A DNA stretch of 43,547 bases from a bacterium (GTDB lineage: Bacteria; Hydrothermota; UBA3073; JACQXS01), in assembly GCA_030592575.1 (NCBI GenBank), contig JAUVIV010000008.1:1-43547 (forward strand), in the 5' to 3' direction. This document shows, one piece after another, positions 15,343-28,048 of this stretch; position 1 is the stretch's first letter, and each line of letters begins with the position of its first letter. The notes under the pieces are model-generated. The model worked only from the letters and a program-made list of their open reading frames with translations, did not search any database and was not told the DNA's origin. The position numbers and the translations under genes were made by a program.

Positions 15343-17037
15343 ATGGCAGAACTTAAACTTGTTGGAGGTTATCCGGAATATATGAGGAAATCCATTGAGG
15401 CAGTAAATAACACAAGAGAAGAAAGAAGAAATTATACACCTCCTTCAATGACAGCAGAACAAAGAACAGAAATATTATCAAAATATCATCCTGATTTTGT
15501 ACCCGGTGGTAAAAGAAAAATAAAAATAGGGCAGAATAAAGGTGATATGGCTCCAAGTGAGGTAACTGACCTTCTTGAAGCATATCCATTAATAGATCCC
15601 AAAAAAATTAAACTGAATGTAGATTATGAAACCGACATTCTAATAATAGGCAGTGGACTCGCAGGTTTATCAGCAGCTATATTGGCAAATGATTGCGGAA
15701 TTCCAAAAGAAAAAATCCTCTTAGCTACTAAATTAAGAGTAGGGGACTCGAATTCTATGATGGCAGAAGGAGGAACCCAAGCAGCAGATAGACCTAATGA
15801 CAATCCTGCAATTCATTTCCTTGATGCATACGGAGGCGGACATTTCACCAATAAACGAGATGTTCTATGGGGTCTCGTAGAAGATGCCCCTCTTGTAATT
15901 AAATGGCTTGAGAATCTCGGAACTATGTTTGACAAGAATCCGGATGGATATTTTGAAGAAAAATGGGGTGGTGGAACTTGCAGGAAAAGAATGCATGCTT
16001 GTCGGGATTATACAGGACTTGAAGAACTCCGAGTTGTAAGAGACGAGTTCAGAAGCAGGGAAATCCCAACCCTTGAGTTTTATTCGGCTATTGAACTACT
16101 TACAGATATGTGCGAGGACGACGCCCACAAGAGCAAAGGGAGTAAAGAGAATAAGGTAACTGGGGCAGTATTATGGAATATGGAAACACAAGAATATAAG
16201 ATTGTGCGAGCCAAAGCAACGATTATTGCTACAGGAGGTTTTGGAAGATTACATATTCGTGGGTTTGCTACCACAAATCACTATGGAGCTACCGGCGATG
16301 GATTAGTTCTTGCTTACAGAGCAGGTGCAAAACTAAGAGATACGGATACTGTTCAATATCATCCAACCGGAGCGGCATATCCGCAACAAATAGTAGGACT
16401 TCTTTTAACAGAAAAACTCAGAAGCACAGGAGCACAGCCAATAAATAAAACCGGAGAAGCATTTGTATTTCCGCTTGAGCCAAGGGATATTGAGGCAAGT
16501 TCGTTTATAAGAGAGTGCTACGAACGAGATAATGGAATTACAACACCTACCGGAATGAGAGGTGTATGGCTTGATACTCCACGAATAGACCAGATTAACG
16601 GAAAAGGATATATCGCAAAGTCTTTCCCGGGAATGGTTAGAATGTTTGAACGATTTGGAATAGATATGATAAAGGACCCTGTTTTAGTGTCCCCGACTCT
16701 TCATTATCAAAACGGAGGTATAGAAACAGACCCCAAAGGCAAGACAAATATAGAAGGACTTTTCGTTGCAGGAGAAGTCTCCGGAGGAGTGCACGGGAAA
16801 AACCGGCTTATGGGTAATTCAACTCTTGATTGTATTGTTTACGGAAGACGTTCAGGGATTTATGCAGCAGAGTATGTTAATAAGGTCGCTAAATTGAACA
16901 CCCCTACATTAAAACATATAGAAAAATATATTAAGATGTTAAAAGATGCTAAAATAAAAGAGGAAAGAAAATCACCTATACTTTTACCTGATTATAGAGG
17001 AAAGGCAACTCTTGCGAGGATGGTTGATATTTTTTAA
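15343..17037 (+). CDS. SdhA/FrdA/TfrA-like FAD-dependent flavoprotein subunit
   Basis: 'DILIIGSGLAGLSAAILAND', 'MMAEGGTQAA', 'HPTG', 'GLFVAGEVSGGVHGKNRLMGNSTLDCIVYGRRSG'; unusual ~80-aa N-terminal extension. Confidence 0.88.
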   Translation: MAELKLVGGYPEYMRKSIEAVNNTREERRNYTPPSMTAEQRTEILSKYHPDFVPGGKRKIKIGQNKGDMAPSEVTDLLEAYPLIDPKKIKLNVDYETDILIIGSGLAGLSAAILANDCGIPKEKILLATKLRVGDSNSMMAEGGTQAADRPNDNPAIHFLDAYGGGHFTNKRDVLWGLVEDAPLVIKWLENLGTMFDKNPDGYFEEKWGGGTCRKRMHACRDYTGLEELRVVRDEFRSREIPTLEFYSAIELLTDMCEDDAHKSKGSKENKVTGAVLWNMETQEYKIVRAKATIIATGGFGRLHIRGFATTNHYGATGDGLVLAYRAGAKLRDTDTVQYHPTGAAYPQQIVGLLLTEKLRSTGAQPINKTGEAFVFPLEPRDIEASSFIRECYERDNGITTPTGMRGVWLDTPRIDQINGKGYIAKSFPGMVRMFERFGIDMIKDPVLVSPTLHYQNGGIETDPKGKTNIEGLFVAGEVSGGVHGKNRLMGNSTLDCIVYGRRSGIYAAEYVNKVAKLNTPTLKHIEKYIKMLKDAKIKEERKSPILLPDYRGKATLARMVDIF

Positions 17038-17335: not shown

Positions 17336-18529
17336 ATGAAAACAAATTCAAAAATTCTTACAGGCACTCATAATCTCAGTGGCAATGAAGCTTGTGTTGA
17401 AGGAGCTATAGCTGTCGGTTGCCGATTTCTTAGCGGATACCCGATTCAACCTGCAATTAAAATTATGCAAAGGTTTCTTTCCAGAGCATATAAAGTAGAT
17501 GCTACTTATGTGCAGATGGAAGATGAAATATCAGCTCTTGCTGCTTTAATAGGTGCAGTTTGGACAGGCAAAAAGGGAATAACTGCAACCTCCGGCCCAG
17601 GACTTTCTCTTATGATGGAGCATATTGGGCTTGGTGTTATGCTTGAAACTCCTTGCGTAATAGTAGATGTGCAAAGAGTAGGACCATCCATCGGTATTCC
17701 CGATCATCCCGGACAAGGTGATATGATGCAAGCAAGATGGGGCTCGCATGGAGATTATGAAATTATAGCACTCTCTCCAAGTTCCCCACAAGAAATGTTT
17801 GACTTTACGATTAGAGCGTTTAACCTTTCTGAACGATATCGTACTCCTGTCGCATTAATGGCAGATGAGTATGTTGCTCATATAAAGGAAAAAGTGATAA
17901 TTTCTCCTGAAAAAGAGATTAAAATTGAACCGAGAAGATATTATAAAGGGCCAAAGGATAAATATTTACCATTCAAAAGAGATAAGGATTTTATTCCTCG
18001 CATGGTAGATATAGGGGATGGTTATAAATTTCATGTTACGGGATTAACTCACGATGACCGTGGCTATCCTGTTATGAATGAAGAATGTCAGGAATATAAT
18101 GTTCATCCTCTGATATGGAAAATTCGCAACTATGTAGATGATATTATTGATATTAAGGAGACAAAAATTGATGATGCCGAAATCGTGATTGTTTCTTATG
18201 GAGCACCTTCACGAATTGCAATCAAGGCAATGAAAGAAGCAAGAAAATTGGGAATAAAGGTAGGCAGTCTTAAGCTTAATACGGTTTGGCCATTTCCTGA
18301 GAAACGAATAACTGAACTTGCAAGAAAAGTCAAAGCTTTCGTAGTTCCTGAAATGAACTACGGTCAGATTGTTTTAGAAGTTGAAAGATGCAGTTATGGA
18401 AATGCAAATGTTGTGTTTGTTTCCTATGCAGAAAAAAATGTTGATAACGTAGATGATTTATTATCCGCAATCAAGCAAGTTATAAAAGAGAAAGAGATTA
18501 AAAAAGAAATTATTGAATATCATACATAA
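17336..18529 (+). CDS. 2-oxoacid:ferredoxin oxidoreductase alpha subunit, divergent paralogue (alpha-1)
   Basis: KorA/PorA-like; 'GYPIQPA' where the adjacent paralogue has 'GYPITPS', and 'GPSIGIPDHPGQGDMMQARWGSHGDYEII'. ATG at 17336; track start GTG at 17321 also possible. Confidence 0.85.
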   Translation: MKTNSKILTGTHNLSGNEACVEGAIAVGCRFLSGYPIQPAIKIMQRFLSRAYKVDATYVQMEDEISALAALIGAVWTGKKGITATSGPGLSLMMEHIGLGVMLETPCVIVDVQRVGPSIGIPDHPGQGDMMQARWGSHGDYEIIALSPSSPQEMFDFTIRAFNLSERYRTPVALMADEYVAHIKEKVIISPEKEIKIEPRRYYKGPKDKYLPFKRDKDFIPRMVDIGDGYKFHVTGLTHDDRGYPVMNEECQEYNVHPLIWKIRNYVDDIIDIKETKIDDAEIVIVSYGAPSRIAIKAMKEARKLGIKVGSLKLNTVWPFPEKRITELARKVKAFVVPEMNYGQIVLEVERCSYGNANVVFVSYAEKNVDNVDDLLSAIKQVIKEKEIKKEIIEYHT

Positions 18530-18640: not shown

Positions 18641-19501
18641 ATGAGCACATTGAAGACTATTAAAAGCAATGAAGTTGCTCACCCAATGGAGAATTTACTC
18701 CGTATGGATAGGATACCTCATATTTGGTGTCCTGGCTGTGGAATTGGTACAGCTGTTACTGCCTTTGCATCAGCTCTTGACAAGTCAAAAGTTGATTTAG
18801 ATAAAGTGTGCGTAGTTTCTGGTATAGGTTGCACCGGTAGAGTTGCAGGTTATGTAAAACTTGATTCATTTCACACAACTCATGGTCGTGCCATTGCATT
18901 TGCAACAGGAATTACACTTGGAAATCCGGATCTAAAAGTAGTTGTTTTTTCAGGTGATGGAGATTTAATATCAATTGGAGGAAATCATTTTATTCATGCA
19001 GCAAGAAGAAATGTCAATATGCTCGTAATATGTGTGAACAATTTCATCTACGCAATGACAGGAGGTCAGGTAGCTCCAACGACTCCACTTGCTACTTATG
19101 CTACAACTTCACCATTTGGGTGTGTTGAGCCTCCATTCAATATTCCATACATAGCAGATTCATCAGGTGCCGTATATGTGGCAAGATGGACAGCTCTCCA
19201 TGTTCGAAGACTTACTAACTCTATAACCGAAGCACTCAATAAACCAGGATTCTCGGTAATTGAAGTTATTTCACCTTGTGCGATGTATTATTCAAGAATT
19301 AACAAACTTGGAGACGGACTTGATATGATGAAATTTTATCACGACAATTCGAAAATAAAACACGGAGAAGATACAAAAAACCTTGATATTGGATTCCAAA
19401 CACCAATTACAGTAGGTAAATTTGTCGATAGAGAAAGACCTACTTATACTGAATCGTATAAAAAATGGCTGTCTGATATTAAAAAGGAAAAAACAAAATG
19501 A
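18641..19501 (+). CDS. 2-oxoacid:ferredoxin oxidoreductase beta subunit, canonical (beta-1)
   Basis: 'IWCPGCGIG', 'SGIGCTGR', TPP motif 'GDGDLISIGGNHFIHAARRNVNMLVICVNN', 'ISPC'. Confidence 0.93.
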   Translation: MSTLKTIKSNEVAHPMENLLRMDRIPHIWCPGCGIGTAVTAFASALDKSKVDLDKVCVVSGIGCTGRVAGYVKLDSFHTTHGRAIAFATGITLGNPDLKVVVFSGDGDLISIGGNHFIHAARRNVNMLVICVNNFIYAMTGGQVAPTTPLATYATTSPFGCVEPPFNIPYIADSSGAVYVARWTALHVRRLTNSITEALNKPGFSVIEVISPCAMYYSRINKLGDGLDMMKFYHDNSKIKHGEDTKNLDIGFQTPITVGKFVDRERPTYTESYKKWLSDIKKEKTK

Positions 19502-20751
19502 AAGCTGAGCCCAAAAATGTAAATACCGGTATATATTACATAGATGGTGATGTTGCTGCCGGTCAAGGTGCTCTGGCAGCAGGATGTAGATTTATAGGTG
19601 GCTATCCAATTACACCATCAACTAAAGCAGCAGAAACATTTGCAGAAATAGCTCCAAAAGCCGGAGCTGTTTTTATCCAAATGGAAGATGAACTTGCTTC
19701 TATAGCAACTATAATAGGTGCATCTTATGCAGGGGTTAAGACAATGACAATCACATCCGGACCAGGTTATTCTCTTATGATGGAGACTATCGGATTTGGT
19801 GCAATGTTAGAAGCACCTTTTGTGATATTAAACGTTCAGCGAGGAGGACCTTCTACCGGTTCGCCAACTAAAACAGGACAAGCAGATATGATGCAAGCAA
19901 GGTGGGGCTCACATGGAGATTATGAAATTATAGCCATAGCACCGGAATCTCCTCAAGAAATGTTTGATTACGCAATCAAAGCATTTAATTTAGCAGAAAA
20001 ATATCGCTGTCCGGTAATGATAATGGCAGATGAATGCGTTGGTCATATGACTGAAAAAGTAGTTATTCCAAAAGCTGATACAATTGAACTTGCAACAAGA
20101 AAATTCTATAAAGGGCCAAAAGATAAGTATTTACCATTTAAGCCTGACAAAGATTTAATTCCGCCAATGGCAAAAGCAGGTGATGGTTGTAATTTATACA
20201 TAACCGGAGATACTCACAATGAAAAAGGATATCCAATATCAAGTCAAAATTTAAAAACAAAAACTCATAAATCAACTACAAGAAGGTTAATTGATAAAAT
20301 CAAACTCAATGCCGATAAAATCATTGAACTAAAAGAAGAAGGTATTGAAGATGCTGATATTATTGTTGTTTCCTATGGGATATCATCCAGAGTCGCTGTA
20401 AAGGGGATTGAACTTGCAAGAGAAAAAGGAATAAAAGTAGGAAGTCTCAGACTTATTACCGTATGGCCATTTCCTGATAAAAAAATAGCCGAACTTGCAA
20501 AAAATATAAAAGCATTTGTAATACCTGAAATAAATTATGGACAGGTTGTTTTTGATGTTGAGAGATGTGCTCACGGTGAGGCAAATGTTGTTCTTATTCC
20601 TCACGGTGGAGCAGGAGTTCATCATCCGGAAGATATATCCGATGCAATTGAATATGCTGATAGAGAAAATAAAAAAATTGAAAAAATTATTGAATGGAAA
20701 ACAAAACTTGAAAAATTGATTTTTGAAAAAGGATTTAAATTAAAAGAATAA
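19498..20751 (+). CDS. 2-oxoacid:ferredoxin oxidoreductase alpha subunit, canonical (alpha-2)
   Basis: 'GGYPITPSTKAAE', 'QMEDELASIATIIGAS', 'TSGPGYSLMMETIGFG', 'GGPSTGSPTKTGQADMMQARWGSHGDYE'; ATGA overlap with beta-1. Confidence 0.93.
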   Translation: MKAEPKNVNTGIYYIDGDVAAGQGALAAGCRFIGGYPITPSTKAAETFAEIAPKAGAVFIQMEDELASIATIIGASYAGVKTMTITSGPGYSLMMETIGFGAMLEAPFVILNVQRGGPSTGSPTKTGQADMMQARWGSHGDYEIIAIAPESPQEMFDYAIKAFNLAEKYRCPVMIMADECVGHMTEKVVIPKADTIELATRKFYKGPKDKYLPFKPDKDLIPPMAKAGDGCNLYITGDTHNEKGYPISSQNLKTKTHKSTTRRLIDKIKLNADKIIELKEEGIEDADIIVVSYGISSRVAVKGIELAREKGIKVGSLRLITVWPFPDKKIAELAKNIKAFVIPEINYGQVVFDVERCAHGEANVVLIPHGGAGVHHPEDISDAIEYADRENKKIEKIIEWKTKLEKLIFEKGFKLKE

Positions 20752-20884: not shown

Positions 20885-21664
20885 ATGAACCCAATTATAA
20901 CTGCTTTTGCAAAAGGAATAAAAAAGTCAGGGATTAAGCCGTCAAGAATTTCTGTACCATCTGATATTCCATTTGAGCCGGAAATCGTAAATCAATTAGG
21001 AATTGATTTTTTCCATACTATCAGAGGACGAGCTATTGCTTTTGGAACTGGATTAAAACTTGGTAATCCTGATCTAATAGTAGTTCCATTCATTGGTGAT
21101 TTAATGACAATCGGTGGAAATCATTTCGTGCATTCAGGAAGAAGAAATATGGATTTACTCGTTATATGTGTAAATAATTTTCTTTACAGAGAAATAAACG
21201 GAAAATCCGCTCCTATACAAAAGCATGAAAATGAACAAATAACCACACAAAAATTTTCACCATACTCAACCTTTGAAAAACCATTTAATGCCACTCACCT
21301 TGCCAACTCTTGTGGTGCAGTATATACAGCAAGATGGACAGCTTTACATACTGATGAACTCGCAGATTCTATTGCCGAAGCATTAAACAAACGAGGATTT
21401 TCTATGATTGAAGTTCTATCACCTGGCCCTAATTATTATACAGGCATTAAAAAAATAGAATCCGATTTACTAAAATTTTACTATGAAAATTCAGTAATAA
21501 AAAATGGCGAGTCTCCACGAAATGTAACAATTAATTCTGATGAAAAAATTGTAGTAGGTAAATTTACAGAAAAAGAACAACTCACGTTTATTGAACAATA
21601 TAATCTTCAACTTGGTAAAGTATTAGGTAGTAAATTCACCCCACATGGAGGAAGAAATGGCTGA
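20885..21664 (+). CDS. Divergent 2-oxoacid:ferredoxin oxidoreductase beta-subunit paralogue lacking Fe-S cysteines and the GDG TPP motif (beta-2)
   Basis: Collinear with beta-1 ('HTIRGRAIAFGTGLKLGNPDLIVV..IGDLMTIGGNHFVHSGRRNMDLLVICVNNF'), but no CPGC, no GxGC, SPC changed to SPG, and GDGD replaced by IGD. Confidence 0.85.
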   Translation: MNPIITAFAKGIKKSGIKPSRISVPSDIPFEPEIVNQLGIDFFHTIRGRAIAFGTGLKLGNPDLIVVPFIGDLMTIGGNHFVHSGRRNMDLLVICVNNFLYREINGKSAPIQKHENEQITTQKFSPYSTFEKPFNATHLANSCGAVYTARWTALHTDELADSIAEALNKRGFSMIEVLSPGPNYYTGIKKIESDLLKFYYENSVIKNGESPRNVTINSDEKIVVGKFTEKEQLTFIEQYNLQLGKVLGSKFTPHGGRNG

Positions 21665-22193
21665 AATTAGATTTGCAGGTTATGGAGGTCAGGGTATTGT
21701 TAGGGCGGCAATCATTGCTGGGAAAGCAGCTACTATTTTCGAAAATAGGTTCGCTACTATGAATCAATCATTTGGACCGGAGGCAAGAGGAGGAGCCTGT
21801 AGCTCTCAATTGATATTATCAGATAATGAAATACTTTATCCCTATATTATTACATCAGCTGTTCTCGTTGCTATGTCTCAGGAAGGTTATACTGTATTTG
21901 AGCCCGAATTAAATGAGGGAGGAATACTCTTGATAGATGAGGATTTAGTAAAACCCAAACCACCTCGTAGTAAAATCAAGATTTTCTCTGTTCCTGCTAC
22001 ACAAATTGCTGAAGACTTAGGAAATAGAATTATCGCAAATGTAGTTATGCTCGGTTTCTTCACTGCCATCACCAAACTGGTTTCAAAAGAAGGAATGGAA
22101 AAAGCAGTAGCTGATTCCGTACCACCAAGATTCAAAGAACTCAATCTTACAGCATTCAATAAAGGATTCCAGCACTACAAAGCAAGTAAGTAA
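21657..22193 (+). CDS. 2-oxoacid:ferredoxin oxidoreductase gamma subunit
   Basis: 'IRFAGYGGQGIVRAAIIAGKAA...NQSFGPEARGGACSSQLILSD'; GGAGGA SD upstream of ATG at 21657. Confidence 0.92.
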   Translation: MAEIRFAGYGGQGIVRAAIIAGKAATIFENRFATMNQSFGPEARGGACSSQLILSDNEILYPYIITSAVLVAMSQEGYTVFEPELNEGGILLIDEDLVKPKPPRSKIKIFSVPATQIAEDLGNRIIANVVMLGFFTAITKLVSKEGMEKAVADSVPPRFKELNLTAFNKGFQHYKASK

Positions 22194-22237: not shown

Positions 22238-22495
22238 ATGAAATATTGGAGAACACCATACAACATAAATGAAATAGAAATTCCACAAGGTGAAGTTCAC
22301 ATAATAAAAGATAGGTGCAAAGGATGTAGCTTCTGTGTAGAATATTGTCCAAAAGATGTACTCGAAATGTCAAAAGAATTTAATTCTAAAGGTTGTCATC
22401 CTCCTCAAGTTAAAAATCCGGAAAATTGTGTGAATTGCGGACTTTGTGAAATGCTTTGTCCGGAATTTGCTATATGGTCAACTCTTAAAAAATAA
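22238..22495 (+). CDS. 2x[4Fe-4S] ferredoxin / delta subunit of the 2-oxoacid:ferredoxin oxidoreductase
   Basis: 'CKGCSFCVEYCPKDVLEMS', 'CVNCGLCEMLCPEFAI'. Confidence 0.92.
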   Translation: MKYWRTPYNINEIEIPQGEVHIIKDRCKGCSFCVEYCPKDVLEMSKEFNSKGCHPPQVKNPENCVNCGLCEMLCPEFAIWSTLKK

Positions 22496-22505
22496 AGATT
22501 AAGAA

Positions 22506-24455
22506 ATGCAAAAACTCACTTCAGATATTCAAAATATACTTGAGTCAAAAAAAGTACATCTTTGCTTCCCTCAAATAAATTCTAATAAATATGCTATTGA
22601 GAAGGTAGGAACATCCAAATGTAAATCTGCTTGCCCAATAGATACAGATGTTAAAGCTTATCTTGGTTTTATCTCCACTAAAGAATTTGACAAAGCATTG
22701 GAAATAGTTAAACGTGATAATCCTTTGCCGGGAATATGCGGAAGAGTATGTTTTCACCCTTGTGAAGCTGAATGTTCAAGAAATGAAATTGACCAACCAC
22801 TCGCTATTTGCTCTCTTAAAAGGTTTCTTGCTGATTACGAACTTAAGAACGAGAGAACAAACATTTTGCCTATCCAAAAATCAAGAGAGGAAAAAATTGC
22901 TATTATCGGTTCAGGTCCCGCCGGTTTGACTACTGCCAATAACCTTATCAGATTGGGATACAAAGTTACCATATTTGAGAAATTGCCCGTTGTCGGAGGA
23001 ATGTTATATACCGGTATTCCGGAATACAGACTTCCGCGAAACATTATAAAAACAGAAATTGATGCAATAGAAAAACTCGGTGTAGAAATCAAAACAAACA
23101 CAAAAATTGACAATCTGGATAAACTACGAAAAGAAGGATATAATGTTATATTCATTGCCATAGGTGCACATAAAGGTTTAAAACTCGGGATCCCAGGGGA
23201 AGACAAATTAGAAGGTTTTATCGATTGTATTACTTTTCTCCGAACAGTGAACCTTGCTTCTCTCCGTCATTCTGAGACAAAACCGAAGAATCTCAAAATT
23301 GGAAAAAAAGTTATTGTAATTGGAGGTGGGAATGCTGCGATTGATTCAGCAAGAACAGCTCTAAGGTTAGGATCTGATGTGCATATTCTTTACCGACGAT
23401 CAAGAGAAGAAATGCCTGCAAGTAAATGGGAAATTAAGGAAGCAGAAAAAGAAGGAATAAAAATTCATTACCTTGCTTCTCCAGTTAAAATACTCGGAGA
23501 AAAAGGAAAAGTAGTAGCTATAAAATGTATCAAAAATAAATTGGGACCATCAGATGCCAGTGGTAGAAGGCGACCAATTTCTATCAAAGATTCTGAGTTT
23601 AAAATAGAAGCTGATACAATAATCCCTGCTATTAGCCAACAACCCGATATTTCATGGTTACCGACTAACCATAAACTTGAAATTTCCAAATGGAACTCAT
23701 TTGTAATAAACGAAGAAACTCTTGCAACAAATGTAGAAGGTATTTTTGCCGGTGGTGATTGTGTAACCGGACCTAAAACTGTAATTGATGCTATAGCCGC
23801 AGGTCACAAAGCATCAAAATCAATTGACAGATACCTAAACCCAGAAGCAAGAAGCAAGAAACAAAGAGCAAAAGTAGAGTTTGAAGTTGTAGTTAACCCC
23901 AAAGAGAAGAAAGAAAGAATTCTTATGCCTGAACTCCCTATAGATAAGAGAAGTAATTTCAAAGAAGTAGAGTTAGGATTTACCGAAGAAATGGCAATAG
24001 AAGAGGCAAAAAGATGTCTAAGATGCGGCTTTTGTGCTGAGTGCAGTGAATGCATATCTAATTGTACTAAAAAATTGATAAGTCTGTCAATACAAGGAGA
24101 AACATCAGGAATATTATTAAGAGTTCCACTTGACACAAATCAATTTCCTTTAAATAATACTTTACAAGGAAAACTTTACGGAACTAATTCAAAAGAAATT
24201 CCTGTAACAGTAGAATCTATAACCGCCAGAGTAATAAGTGATTTTTGTCGTGGATGTGGTAATTGCGTGGAAATTTGCGAATATTCCGCTCCCAAATTAA
24301 AAGAAAATGGAGTCCAAATTTGCAGTATTGATGAAGCATTATGTAAAGGATGTGGAGTATGTATATCGGTCTGCCCATCCGGTGCAATAACATTAGGACA
24401 TTTTACAGACAATAATATTAACAAACTAATGGAAGTAGCTCTCCAGACTGATTAG
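22506..24455 (+). CDS. GltD/NfnB-like FAD/NAD(P) oxidoreductase with a C-terminal HdrA-like dicluster ferredoxin domain
   Basis: 'CKSACPIDTDVKAYLG', 'CGRVCFHPCEAECSR', 'IIGSGPAGLTTA', 'GGGNAAIDSAR', 'GIFAGGDCVTGPKTVIDAIAAGHKA'; then 'CRGCGNCVEICEYSA...CKGCGVCISVCPSGAITLGHFTDN'. Confidence 0.9.
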   Translation: MQKLTSDIQNILESKKVHLCFPQINSNKYAIEKVGTSKCKSACPIDTDVKAYLGFISTKEFDKALEIVKRDNPLPGICGRVCFHPCEAECSRNEIDQPLAICSLKRFLADYELKNERTNILPIQKSREEKIAIIGSGPAGLTTANNLIRLGYKVTIFEKLPVVGGMLYTGIPEYRLPRNIIKTEIDAIEKLGVEIKTNTKIDNLDKLRKEGYNVIFIAIGAHKGLKLGIPGEDKLEGFIDCITFLRTVNLASLRHSETKPKNLKIGKKVIVIGGGNAAIDSARTALRLGSDVHILYRRSREEMPASKWEIKEAEKEGIKIHYLASPVKILGEKGKVVAIKCIKNKLGPSDASGRRRPISIKDSEFKIEADTIIPAISQQPDISWLPTNHKLEISKWNSFVINEETLATNVEGIFAGGDCVTGPKTVIDAIAAGHKASKSIDRYLNPEARSKKQRAKVEFEVVVNPKEKKERILMPELPIDKRSNFKEVELGFTEEMAIEEAKRCLRCGFCAECSECISNCTKKLISLSIQGETSGILLRVPLDTNQFPLNNTLQGKLYGTNSKEIPVTVESITARVISDFCRGCGNCVEICEYSAPKLKENGVQICSIDEALCKGCGVCISVCPSGAITLGHFTDNNINKLMEVALQTD

Positions 24456-24473
24456 ATTTACGACTATGAAATA

Positions 24474-24839
24474 ATGGCAAATAATAAAATAATTGTATTC
24501 GCCTGCAACTGGTCTCATAATATTACAAAAGATATAGAACAAATTGAAGAAACTAATATAATTAGAGTTATGTGTTCCGGTCGTATTACTACTGCACTCA
24601 TTCTAAAAGCTTTTGAATTAGGAACCGATGGAGTACTTGTTCTTGGCTGTCCTGATGGAGAATGCCATTATAATTTTGGAAACAAGCAAGCAAAAAAACA
24701 ATTTGAAATCACCAAAAATTTAGCTAATGTTTTAGGAATAGAGCCAGAAAAAATACAGTTTGAATCTATACCAAAAGATGAAGAAATGTTTACCGAATGC
24801 ATAAAGAAATTTGCGAATAACATTAAGAAAAATGGCTAA
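24474..24839 (+). CDS. MvhD/FlpD-like hydrogenase iron-sulfur (delta) subunit
   Basis: 'IIVFACNWSHNITKDIEQIEETNIIRVMCSGRITTALILKAFELGTDGVLVLGCPDGECHYNFGN'; same architecture as the C-terminus of the HdrA fusion. Confidence 0.87.
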   Translation: MANNKIIVFACNWSHNITKDIEQIEETNIIRVMCSGRITTALILKAFELGTDGVLVLGCPDGECHYNFGNKQAKKQFEITKNLANVLGIEPEKIQFESIPKDEEMFTECIKKFANNIKKNG

Positions 24840-25083
24840 AATCTTTACAAAAAAGTGCCCCGATTGTGACGGTAAACTCGTGAGATCAAGAGGACACAGT
24901 GCAGGCTATGCTATGTATTTCTGGACAAAACCATGGGACAAAACCTTTATAAAGGGGCTAACAGGAAACTCAAAAGTTTATCCATGGTTATGTATGAATT
25001 GTGGAAGAGTATTTCTTTATGTAGATGAAAAAGAACAAGAGTCTATCAAGCGAGAGTATGAGAAAAAAAAGATGAAAATATAA
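24832..25083 (+). CDS. Small zinc-ribbon protein
   Basis: 'CPDCDGK' and 'CMNCGR' CxxC pairs; ATG at 24832 overlaps the mvhD-like stop (track start TTG at 24811). Confidence 0.7.
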   Translation: MAKIFTKKCPDCDGKLVRSRGHSAGYAMYFWTKPWDKTFIKGLTGNSKVYPWLCMNCGRVFLYVDEKEQESIKREYEKKKMKI

Positions 25084-26264
25084 TGAATTTACGTATTAAG
25101 GAAATTATAAACAAAACAAAAGCATATAACTGTCTGGACTGTGGAAAATGCACATCGGTATGTCCTATTTCGCTACTCAAAGAAGATTATTCGCCGAGAC
25201 TCACTGTCCAAAAAGCTTTATTAGAGAACCCTGAATCTCTCTTAAAGGACGAACTTCTCTGGTGGTGTTTGAGTTGTGGTATGTGTGATGAAATATGCGA
25301 GTCCGATGTTCATTATACAGAATTTATTAAGGATTTACGAATAGAAGCACACAAAATTGGGCAGGAGGGTATTTACACTCATAACGGGACAATGCAATCT
25401 ATAATGAAAATGATGTCCCTCTCCCCTACCCTCAAACAAAATCGCCTTGATTGGCTTACAAAAGATCTCAAAGTAAAAGTATATCCGCCTACTCCTTCAA
25501 CTTTTGAACTCACCGACTCAACAGATATAATATATTTTGTGGGTTGTCTTCCTTATTTTGACAGTTTTTTTACCCATCTGGACTTAAATACTATAAATAT
25601 TGCAAAAAGTACAATAAAAATACTTAACCATCTGGATATAGAACCTGTTCTATTGTCTAATGAAAGATGCTGTGGACACGACCTCTTATGGACGGGAGAT
25701 GTTGAGAATTTCAAAAAACTTGCCCAATGTAATATTGAGGAAATCAAAAAAACAGGTGCAAAAAAAATAGTATTCTCTTGTGCGGAATGTTATCAAACTT
25801 TCAAACAAGAATATCCCAAATACATAGGAACATTAGATATTGAAGTAATTCATATATCCGAACTCATTGCCGAAAATCTCTCAAAACTCACAACTTGCGA
25901 CTCACAACTCACAACTAAGGTAACCTATCAAGACCCTTGCAGATTAGGCAGATTTTGTGGAATCTACGAAGAACCGAGACAAATTATGAGTGCTGTAGGA
26001 ATTGAGATTAAAGAAATGATGCGAAACAGAAAGAGTTCGGTTTGTTGTGGAACATCTGCATGGATAAACTGCGGCACTTGTTCCAAACAAATTCAAGTAG
26101 CAAGATTAAAAGAAGCAAAAAATACAGGTGCAGACCTTTTGATTACAAGTTGCCCAAAGTGTCAGATTCATTTCAAATGTGCAATGAAAGATGAAAATAC
26201 ACCTAAGGAAGCAAAGATTGAGATTCAAGATTTAACAACTTTAATTGCAAATCAATTAAAATAA
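25083..26264 (+). CDS. HdrC-HdrB fusion (HdrD-like: dicluster ferredoxin plus CCG domains)
   Basis: 'CLDCGKCTSVCPISL', 'WWCLSCGMCDEICES', CCG-type motifs 'NERCCGHD', 'SSVCCGTSAWINCG'. Confidence 0.9.
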   Translation: MNLRIKEIINKTKAYNCLDCGKCTSVCPISLLKEDYSPRLTVQKALLENPESLLKDELLWWCLSCGMCDEICESDVHYTEFIKDLRIEAHKIGQEGIYTHNGTMQSIMKMMSLSPTLKQNRLDWLTKDLKVKVYPPTPSTFELTDSTDIIYFVGCLPYFDSFFTHLDLNTINIAKSTIKILNHLDIEPVLLSNERCCGHDLLWTGDVENFKKLAQCNIEEIKKTGAKKIVFSCAECYQTFKQEYPKYIGTLDIEVIHISELIAENLSKLTTCDSQLTTKVTYQDPCRLGRFCGIYEEPRQIMSAVGIEIKEMMRNRKSSVCCGTSAWINCGTCSKQIQVARLKEAKNTGADLLITSCPKCQIHFKCAMKDENTPKEAKIEIQDLTTLIANQLK

Positions 26265-26365
26265 ATACCATCAGTCTTGGTTATAAGACTACATCTTATA
26301 CTATGAAAAAAAATCAGCTTGACAAATGGGGTCAAGTCAGTAGTAAGAGTACAAGGAGGTATAAA

Positions 26366-28048
26366 ATGTATAAATGGTTATTTCTTGTAATAAGTTTGGG
26401 AATCAGTAATATTCAGGGGTTTGCATTATCCAATATTATTGCATCAACCACGAATAGTATATATTGCCTAAATAGCGATGGTACTTTTAGATGGAGTTTT
26501 GCTTACTCAAATAACGATATATCCGGCGCTGCTATCGGTAACATAGATAATACCGGATATCCGGAAATTTTTGTAGGTGCAAACAAATTTTACTGCCTTG
26601 AACATGATGGAACTTTGAAGTGGTCATATCCTATAACAACCGGTCAGTGTTCTCCCACAATAGCTAACATAGATAATGCCGGAAATCCTGAAGTGCTTAT
26701 AGTAGATACATCTTCTGCACTCTATTGCTTCAACAATGACGGCACAGTAAAATGGTCTTGTGGAATATCAGGCTCTGGAACTCATCGTTCTTCAGTTACT
26801 GTAGCAAGTGTAGATGGTATTGGGACACCTGAAATTCTTGTAGCTATAAATTCAAAAGTATATTGCATAAATAGCGGTGGAACTATAGACTGGTCGTATG
26901 GAATAACTAATAATTTTCATTTCTGCCCGGGAGTAGCAGTAGCTGATATAAATTTAGATGGCACTCCGGAAATCATAGTAAGTGGTTTTGATAGGATATA
27001 CTGCATACAAGGAAATGGCAATCTGAAATGGTCACATCTACCTATGGCAGGAGCAGAAATATCTCAACCGGCTATAGCTGATATCGATAGTGATGGTAGA
27101 ATTGAGATTGTTATTCATCAATATAGTCAAACAGTCTTTCCTAGATATATAACAGCTTTTGAAGAAAATGCAGCAGGCAATGGACTTGATAGAGACTGGA
27201 TGGTTCAGTGTTGGGATAAAAGTGGTGGTTCTGCCGCGGCTCCTGTAATATGTGATATTGATGGGGACGGTGATAAAGATGTTATGTGGATTGGATGCAC
27301 AGGTGGAGGAGGTAGTACTCAAACAGGATTACTGTATATAATGAATGGCACTAATGGGGGACATCCTGATAACTCAGGGCCACCTTGCTACACAAATTCT
27401 AACTTTGCCAGTGGAACCCTCTATGAACGTGGAGTGGCAGTAGCAGATATAGATGATGATGGGCATATCGAAATAGTTGGAATTAAGTGTGGAGATGGAG
27501 CAATGGGAGGAGTAGCTGTACTTGGATGTAATACATGGGCAGACGGTAGAGATTTATTCACATCCCATCTTTATCATATTACTGAGATAAATGATAATTT
27601 AACAATACCTGTGACTGAACCGAATAACTGGGGAAGTCATAATACCTGGCTTACACAATTGACTACCGGAGGAACCAGTTTCGGTACTCCTACAATAAAA
27701 TGGATATATAATACAGATATGGGTTGGATTACTCATTCTATAGCGATAGCTAACTTAGACACCCCTCTGGAAGTTGAAGAAAATAACCTCTCACCTAAAG
27801 CTTCTGATTTAAAAGTACTTTACAAAAATGGTAGAAGAGTAATTGTTTTCACCCTATCTAAAAGCGAAGAAGTCTGCTTTCATGTTTTTGACATAGTTGG
27901 AAGAAAAAAAGAAACTCTTAATATGGGAACAATGAATGCAGGAACACATGAGATACCGATGGAATCAAATAACATCAAGAACGGAGTATATTTCATTAAA
28001 GCACACTTAGGAAACAGAGTATTGAATTATAAAACTATAATACTTTAG
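26366..28048 (+). CDS. Secreted FG-GAP/PQQ-like beta-propeller protein with a T9SS-type C-terminal sorting domain (paralogue 1)
   Basis: AAGGAGG SD before ATG at 26366 (track start 26303 lies upstream); signal peptide MYKWLFLVISLGISNIQGFAL; repeats 'AIGNIDNTGYPEIFVGAN'; C-terminal 'HVFDIVGRKKETLNMGTMNAGTHEIP..GVYFIKAHLGNRVLNYKTIIL'. Confidence 0.85.
   Translation: MYKWLFLVISLGISNIQGFALSNIIASTTNSIYCLNSDGTFRWSFAYSNNDISGAAIGNIDNTGYPEIFVGANKFYCLEHDGTLKWSYPITTGQCSPTIANIDNAGNPEVLIVDTSSALYCFNNDGTVKWSCGISGSGTHRSSVTVASVDGIGTPEILVAINSKVYCINSGGTIDWSYGITNNFHFCPGVAVADINLDGTPEIIVSGFDRIYCIQGNGNLKWSHLPMAGAEISQPAIADIDSDGRIEIVIHQYSQTVFPRYITAFEENAAGNGLDRDWMVQCWDKSGGSAAAPVICDIDGDGDKDVMWIGCTGGGGSTQTGLLYIMNGTNGGHPDNSGPPCYTNSNFASGTLYERGVAVADIDDDGHIEIVGIKCGDGAMGGVAVLGCNTWADGRDLFTSHLYHITEINDNLTIPVTEPNNWGSHNTWLTQLTTGGTSFGTPTIKWIYNTDMGWITHSIAIANLDTPLEVEENNLSPKASDLKVLYKNGRRVIVFTLSKSEEVCFHVFDIVGRKKETLNMGTMNAGTHEIPMESNNIKNGVYFIKAHLGNRVLNYKTIIL

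Follow-up and report, generated by a model that had tools for sequence, protein, structure and literature searches.

The DNA analysed here (the window, 43,547 nucleotides) contains a gene cluster for a 2-oxoacid:ferredoxin oxidoreductase (OFOR) in which the alpha and beta subunits are each encoded twice. On the basis of the sequences and of analogy with known systems, we consider it probable that the product is an obligate asymmetric heterotetramer, (alpha-2 beta-1)(alpha-1 beta-2), together with gamma and delta, in which one site is live and the other is dead. Alignment shows that the degeneration of the paralogous subunits is complementary, and that it is fixed in all of the orthologues.

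All of the genes in this paragraph are on the forward strand. The order is alpha-1 (KorA-like, 17336-18529), beta-1 (18641-19501), alpha-2 (KorA, 19498-20751), beta-2 (20885-21664), gamma (KorC, 21645-22193) and delta (KorD, with two 4Fe-4S, 22238-22495), the last two being identified by profile matches and being the sole copies in the cluster. The canonical alpha (alpha-2), beta (beta-1), gamma and delta required for a whole OFOR are encoded together. Profile matches and neighbourhood comparison place an FrdA/TfrA-like flavoprotein (15343-17037) in linked context upstream, and a set of electron-transfer genes (22506-26264) downstream, comprising a GltD-like flavoprotein, an MvhD-like protein, a small zinc-ribbon-like protein and an HdrCB/TfrB-like protein. 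The substrate is probably 2-oxoglutarate, as predicted from the family and from the neighbouring fumarate-reductase-like gene.

It is worth adding some observations on this neighbourhood. The GltD-like flavoprotein carries extra Fe-S domains, and in some relatives (loci L039 and L040) GltD and MvhD are apparently fused. The Kor-GltD-MvhD-HdrCB set also adjoins single-copy Kor genes, in Zixibacteria, Acidobacteria and Phycisphaerales. Just 3' of the Hdr-like gene (26303-28048) there is what, from inspection of the translation by eye, is probably a secreted FG-GAP/VCBS-type repeat protein with a C-terminal sorting-type domain.

The beta-2 subunit and its cofactor motifs

The first-pass annotation described beta-2 as a full-length ORF related to KorB, and this is borne out. 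The ORF starts with ATG and encodes 259 amino acids. The reading frame is open for 260 codons only, the ATG being at about the first codon past a stop, and a three-frame check of the 133-base spacer 5' of the gene found no CxxC and no remnant of CPGC in any frame, so the missing N-terminus is not the result of a wrongly picked start. The protein matches Pfam TPP_enzyme_C (E 2.4e-17; score 63.6 bits, cut-off 21.9) and also PorB_KorB (E 9.9e-33), yet here it is under the curated cut-off of 261.9 bits. AlphaFold2 gives a confident single-chain model (pLDDT 85, pTM 0.87), for which the top solved structures identified by Foldseek are beta subunits of 2-oxoacid:ferredoxin oxidoreductases from Sulfolobus, Magnetococcus and H. 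pylori (E about 1e-15). Beta-2 is thus a member of the KorB/PorB group both in sequence, through TPP_enzyme_C, and in fold, through its similarity to KorB chains. A pseudogene, a frameshift and a wrong start are all excluded, by the open frame, the spacer check, the presence of 27 orthologues, and the dN/dS values given below.

To score the motif positions, which are numbered here as in beta-1, 122 KorB proteins were aligned. The canonical positions Cys30, Cys33, Cys64, Cys213 and Gly105-Asp106 are kept in all of the beta-1 (25-27) and single-copy KorB (67-68) sequences that cover them. Beta-1 of the window has CPGC (18728-18739), GIGC, GDGD (18953-18964) and SPC. Taken by itself, beta-2 falls short of a catalytic KorB on two defining points. 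All four cysteines of the proximal [4Fe-4S] cluster, including those of the N-terminal CPGC and GxGC, have gone from 27/27 beta-2 sequences, one misaligned Cys aside, as has the Mg-TPP GDG, and no such loss occurs in the approximately 95 beta-1 and single-copy KorB sequences. No beta-2 (0/27) could therefore hold the cluster with four cysteines, and none has the combination of GDG and Asn that defines the Mg-TPP site. In the window, SGIGC is replaced by SDIPF (20960-20974), the cluster Cys being Phe, Tyr or Trp in all orthologues; the fourth cluster Cys is lost by replacement of SPC with SPG (21419-21427); and the GDGD loop is reduced to IGD (21092-21100) by a two-residue deletion. Misalignment of the motifs, which the first-pass annotation had named as a possible refutation, is excluded because the losses hold on the 122-sequence alignment.

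The original statement that every cofactor motif has been lost was nevertheless slightly too strong. It is correct for the four cysteines (with SPC becoming SPG) and for the GDG, but the Mg-ligand Asn of the VNNF motif (equivalent to Asn118-beta of StOFOR1) is retained by every beta-2 (27/27), and the former GDGD site still has a GD pair. Overall, of the 113 sites that are conserved in single-copy KorB, beta-2 retains 48 and beta-1 retains 99.

We note that the same genome encodes a second, different TPP-less KorB paralogue (L054:7719-10871, corresponding to G000 contig C85:15718-18870), also found in relatives (L165, L167, L168). This has kept all four cluster cysteines, with LNDTD replacing GDGD, and is flanked by genes for a KorD-like ferredoxin and an HdrA2-like flavoprotein; neither alpha nor gamma is adjacent. 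Its features suggest a [4Fe-4S] adaptor that feeds HdrA.

Reciprocal losses in the other subunits

The two alpha subunits were mapped to StOFOR1 of Sulfolobus via phmmer alignments, the numbering of which reproduces the published Thr256, Arg344, Thr349 and Asp468. In StOFOR1, single mutants of the YPITP residues and of Arg344 are inactive or strongly impaired (PMC5020499). Alpha-2 has an intact YPITPST (19603-19623) and QRGGPSTG, whereas alpha-1 has YPIQP (17438-17452), with Gln in place of Thr256. This essential substrate Thr is kept in 27/27 alpha-2 and 63/63 single alphas, and is replaced in 23/23 alpha-1 by one of six residues (Q, V, M, A, E or P). Ser40 and Thr41, beside the YPITP Thr, together with Thr119 and Thr123, are also lost or variable in alpha-1, and are all kept in 27/27 alpha-2. 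The substrate Arg (equivalent to Arg344) is kept in 27/27 alpha-2 and lost in 8/24 alpha-1, although it is still present in the alpha-1 of the window. Alpha-1 does retain the Glu of MEDE that activates TPP (23/23). Loss of the Thr349 equivalent from alpha-1 is weak as proof, because the StOFOR1 mutant T349L is similar to wild type (PMC5020499).

The opposite pattern is found in a loop that is expected to act between protomers. In StOFOR1, Asp468 of alpha projects into the active-site pocket of the other protomer (PMC5020499). In alpha-2 the corresponding region, HVTGLTHD..GYP...CQ, has decayed, whereas it remains conserved in both alpha-1 and the single-copy alphas. The alpha-1 loop HVTGLTHDDRGYPVMNEECQ (18032-18091) contains the Asp468 equivalent and has its key residues kept in 24/24 sequences, while the alpha-2 loop YITGDTHNEKGYPISSQNLKTKTHKSTTR (20197-20283) is both decayed and lengthened. 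His233, Thr238 and the Asp468 equivalent (Leu237) are each present in 24/24 alpha-1 and 66/66 single alphas, the figures for alpha-2 being 2/28, 6/28 and 20/28, respectively. The single-copy enzymes have 135 conserved alpha sites; of these, 16 are lost solely in alpha-1 and 7 solely in alpha-2. Losses in the cis motifs are 7:0 (alpha-1:alpha-2) and in the trans loop 3:0 (alpha-2:alpha-1), for which the Fisher p of 0.008 is descriptive, since only ten sites enter the test and the segments were delimited with the motifs already in view.

The beta subunits differ in a similar way at their C-termini. The tail of beta-2, LGSKFTPHGG (21623-21652), is missing from beta-1: the motif is present in 26/27 beta-2 and 65/68 single-copy KorB, and in 0/27 beta-1. 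The one beta-2 that lacks it is cut off by a contig end. The gene for gamma overlaps the end of beta-2, but the tail core LGSKF sits 5' of the gamma start, so the overlap does not explain why the tail has been retained. In StOFOR1, the C-terminal end of beta covers the other protomer (PMC5020499).

Given that beta-2 is unable to bind TPP and that alpha-1 is without the substrate Thr, a complete site is possible only in alpha-2/beta-1. Judged from the sequences, alpha-2/beta-1 is the sole possible live site and alpha-1/beta-2 is the dead site.

Distribution, selection and history

Relatives, a set with a single genome for each GTDB species, and 147 genomes from the phylum of the window were scanned, which yielded the 27 aligned beta-2 orthologues. 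These are mostly from the candidate phylum WOR-3, to which the window itself belongs; the NCBI titles of its relatives there read WOR-3, Stahlbacteria or Caldifarciminota. The four-gene form is likely to be confined to WOR-3; the titles of some MAGs, as Cloacimonadota and Armatimonadetes, disagree with this. Co-occurrence of canonical and degenerate KorB pairs in related genomes, proposed as a check, is seen throughout: a strong beta-2 match was found in about 25 WOR-3 genomes of the 147 scanned, and beta-1 is present in every one of them. The gene order alpha1-beta1-alpha2-beta2-gamma is observed wherever the contigs are long enough, with one delta in a variable position. In the same context, FrdA-alpha-beta-gamma, just one alpha and one beta are found in related genomes, which in some cases are of the same family. 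Two such loci (L171 and L172, in genomes G109 and G114) are in the same genus as four-gene genomes, which suggests loss, or replacement by transfer.

Beta-2 is a maintained protein under purifying selection. The pairwise dN/dS (NG86) is 0.06-0.20, similar to alpha-1 and somewhat higher than beta-1, and there are 57 invariant columns among 21 sequences. Relaxed selection, which had been named as a sign of a pseudogene, is thus not seen. Nor are the frequent frameshifts that had been named along with it: there is a single broken copy, an orthologue in genome G003 additional to the 27 (L041:9061-9810, reverse strand), with one in-frame TAG that is either an assembly error or a recent nonsense change. 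The possibility that beta-2 is a decaying duplicate, retained only through its position in the operon, could draw on this TAG and on the rate of evolution of beta-2, which is about twice that of beta-1 (mean distance 0.479 vs 0.235). We regard it as very improbable, because it is contradicted by the dN/dS values, by the rarity of broken copies among the orthologues seen, by the invariant columns and by conservation of the C-terminal tail.

Beta-1, beta-2, alpha-1 and alpha-2 are each monophyletic (SH-aLRT 99-100) in trees built from 72 beta proteins and 70 alpha proteins. This fits a single tandem duplication of an alpha-beta pair, followed by largely vertical descent. The first copy (alpha-1/beta-1) retained the working beta and the second (alpha-2/beta-2) the working alpha. 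A mirror-tree analysis (partial distance correlation) of which alpha pairs with which beta did not single out alpha-1/beta-2, for which partial r was 0.28, as against 0.55 for beta-1/beta-2.

A proposed asymmetric enzyme and its alternatives

We propose that the tandem duplication came first, and that the complementary degeneration followed and led to an obligate heteromer. Binding of the substrate, of TPP and Mg and of the proximal [4Fe-4S] cluster would be restricted to the interface between alpha-2 and beta-1. The other protomer, alpha-1/beta-2, would be catalytically dead and would complete the live protomer in trans: by homology with StOFOR1, the TGLTHD...CQE loop of alpha-1 is expected to enter the live pocket, as the Asp468 loop does, and the tail of beta-2 to cover the other protomer. 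The reciprocal elements, namely the alpha-2 loop and the beta-1 tail, would serve the dead site only, and may have decayed for that reason. The trans role is assigned to loop and tail by homology with StOFOR1. If alpha-2 beta-1 formed a homodimer, the trans loop would have to come from alpha-2 itself, where it has decayed, and a mixed tetramer is therefore favoured. Some observations speak against this reading: the TPP-activating Glu persists in alpha-1, the Mg-ligand Asn in beta-2 and the substrate Arg in the alpha-1 of the window, and the mirror-tree analysis gave no preference to alpha-1/beta-2 as a pair. Beta-2 would then be a prozyme-like partner subunit, neither an isozyme nor a relic. 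This agrees with the first-pass annotation in seeing beta-2 as a cofactor-less structural subunit, for which the losses fixed in 27/27 sequences, the purifying selection and the constant presence of beta-1 provide support; that annotation overlooked the degenerate alpha-1 and the inter-protomer losses in beta-1 and alpha-2.

A different pairing is conceivable, in which alpha-1 beta-1 is live on another substrate and alpha-2 beta-1 carries out the 2-oxoglutarate reaction, with beta-2 as a side product. Either alpha could be a partner for beta-1, the TPP-activating Glu is kept in alpha-1, and oxalate oxidoreductase (YPIRP) has Arg at the same Thr and is still active (PMC5020499). However, alpha-1 does not have the YPIRP signature, the residue being Q, V, M, A, E or P and never R (n=23), and the use of six residues at this site, together with loss of the Arg in 8/24, is as expected for an absent substrate rather than for one new substrate. 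We consider this pairing unlikely; alpha-2 beta-2, with no TPP site in beta-2, cannot be live at all. It is also quite improbable that beta-2, with or without alpha-1, is a transient regulatory or assembly factor, or that it docks the GltD/MvhD/HdrCB electron-transfer module. Hdr-like genes are indeed linked in many clusters, but they also adjoin single-copy Kor in several phyla, so beta-2 is not required for them, and the retained inter-protomer tail and loop are a better fit to a permanent partner in a tetramer. Returning to the asymmetric tetramer, we suggest more tentatively that the ancestral homodimeric symmetry has been broken on both subunits at once, with the cis residues kept in one alpha and in the beta of the other pair, and the trans elements in the opposite copies. 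The dead protomer might then provide a one-sided surface, possibly docking a single GltD/Hdr electron-transfer module or removing communication between TPP sites.

OFORs are regarded as symmetric, with two equal TPP sites, between which alternating-site reactivity has been suggested. The cluster belongs to this known family. The symmetric enzymes StOFOR1/2 (5b46-5b48), Magnetococcus OGOR (6n2n) and H. pylori OorDABC (8ys5) have the subunit folds and the alpha-2/beta-1 catalytic motifs in common with it, StOFOR also sharing the inter-protomer loop and tail, and OorDABC the gamma and delta partners. They are built from a single type of alpha and a single type of beta, each present twice, and have two equal sites, whereas here the sequences indicate complementary live and dead versions. 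The closest sequence relatives are single-copy korDABC clusters (WOR-3, TA06, Zixibacteria, KSB1, Acidobacteria and others), which often share the neighbours FrdA, GltD, MvhD and HdrCB; in these, one alpha and one beta bear all of the motifs, which the four-gene form splits between copies. Thermococcales have tandem KGOR/XOR clusters with two adjacent 2-oxoacid oxidoreductase gene sets, each thought to be a complete enzyme. A parallel in principle is the prozyme system of trypanosomatid deoxyhypusine synthase, in which an impaired paralogue and a dead one form an obligate heteromer that is activated about 3000-fold upon assembly (PMC3663545). As is characteristic of prozyme-type pairs, the dead paralogue of the present cluster is conserved together with the live one under purifying selection, but the trypanosomatid enzyme is unrelated, and here both subunits have been duplicated and have degenerated reciprocally. 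In the literature searched, outside which most subscription papers lie, we found no report of degenerate OFOR subunits, of duplicated korAB or of a live/dead split in an OFOR, and a term search of a WOR-3 survey that counts korABCD (PMC12542636) returned no mention of the duplication.

Genome annotation scores such clusters as two Kor enzymes, where there is most likely one. The cluster would be a clear case in which duplication, degeneration and complementation have made an obligate heteromer out of a homodimer, and cis- and trans-acting elements can be told apart, tentatively, from the pattern of decay alone. If the proposal is correct, a natural OFOR in which only one of the two sites is live would provide a direct test of communication between the sites.
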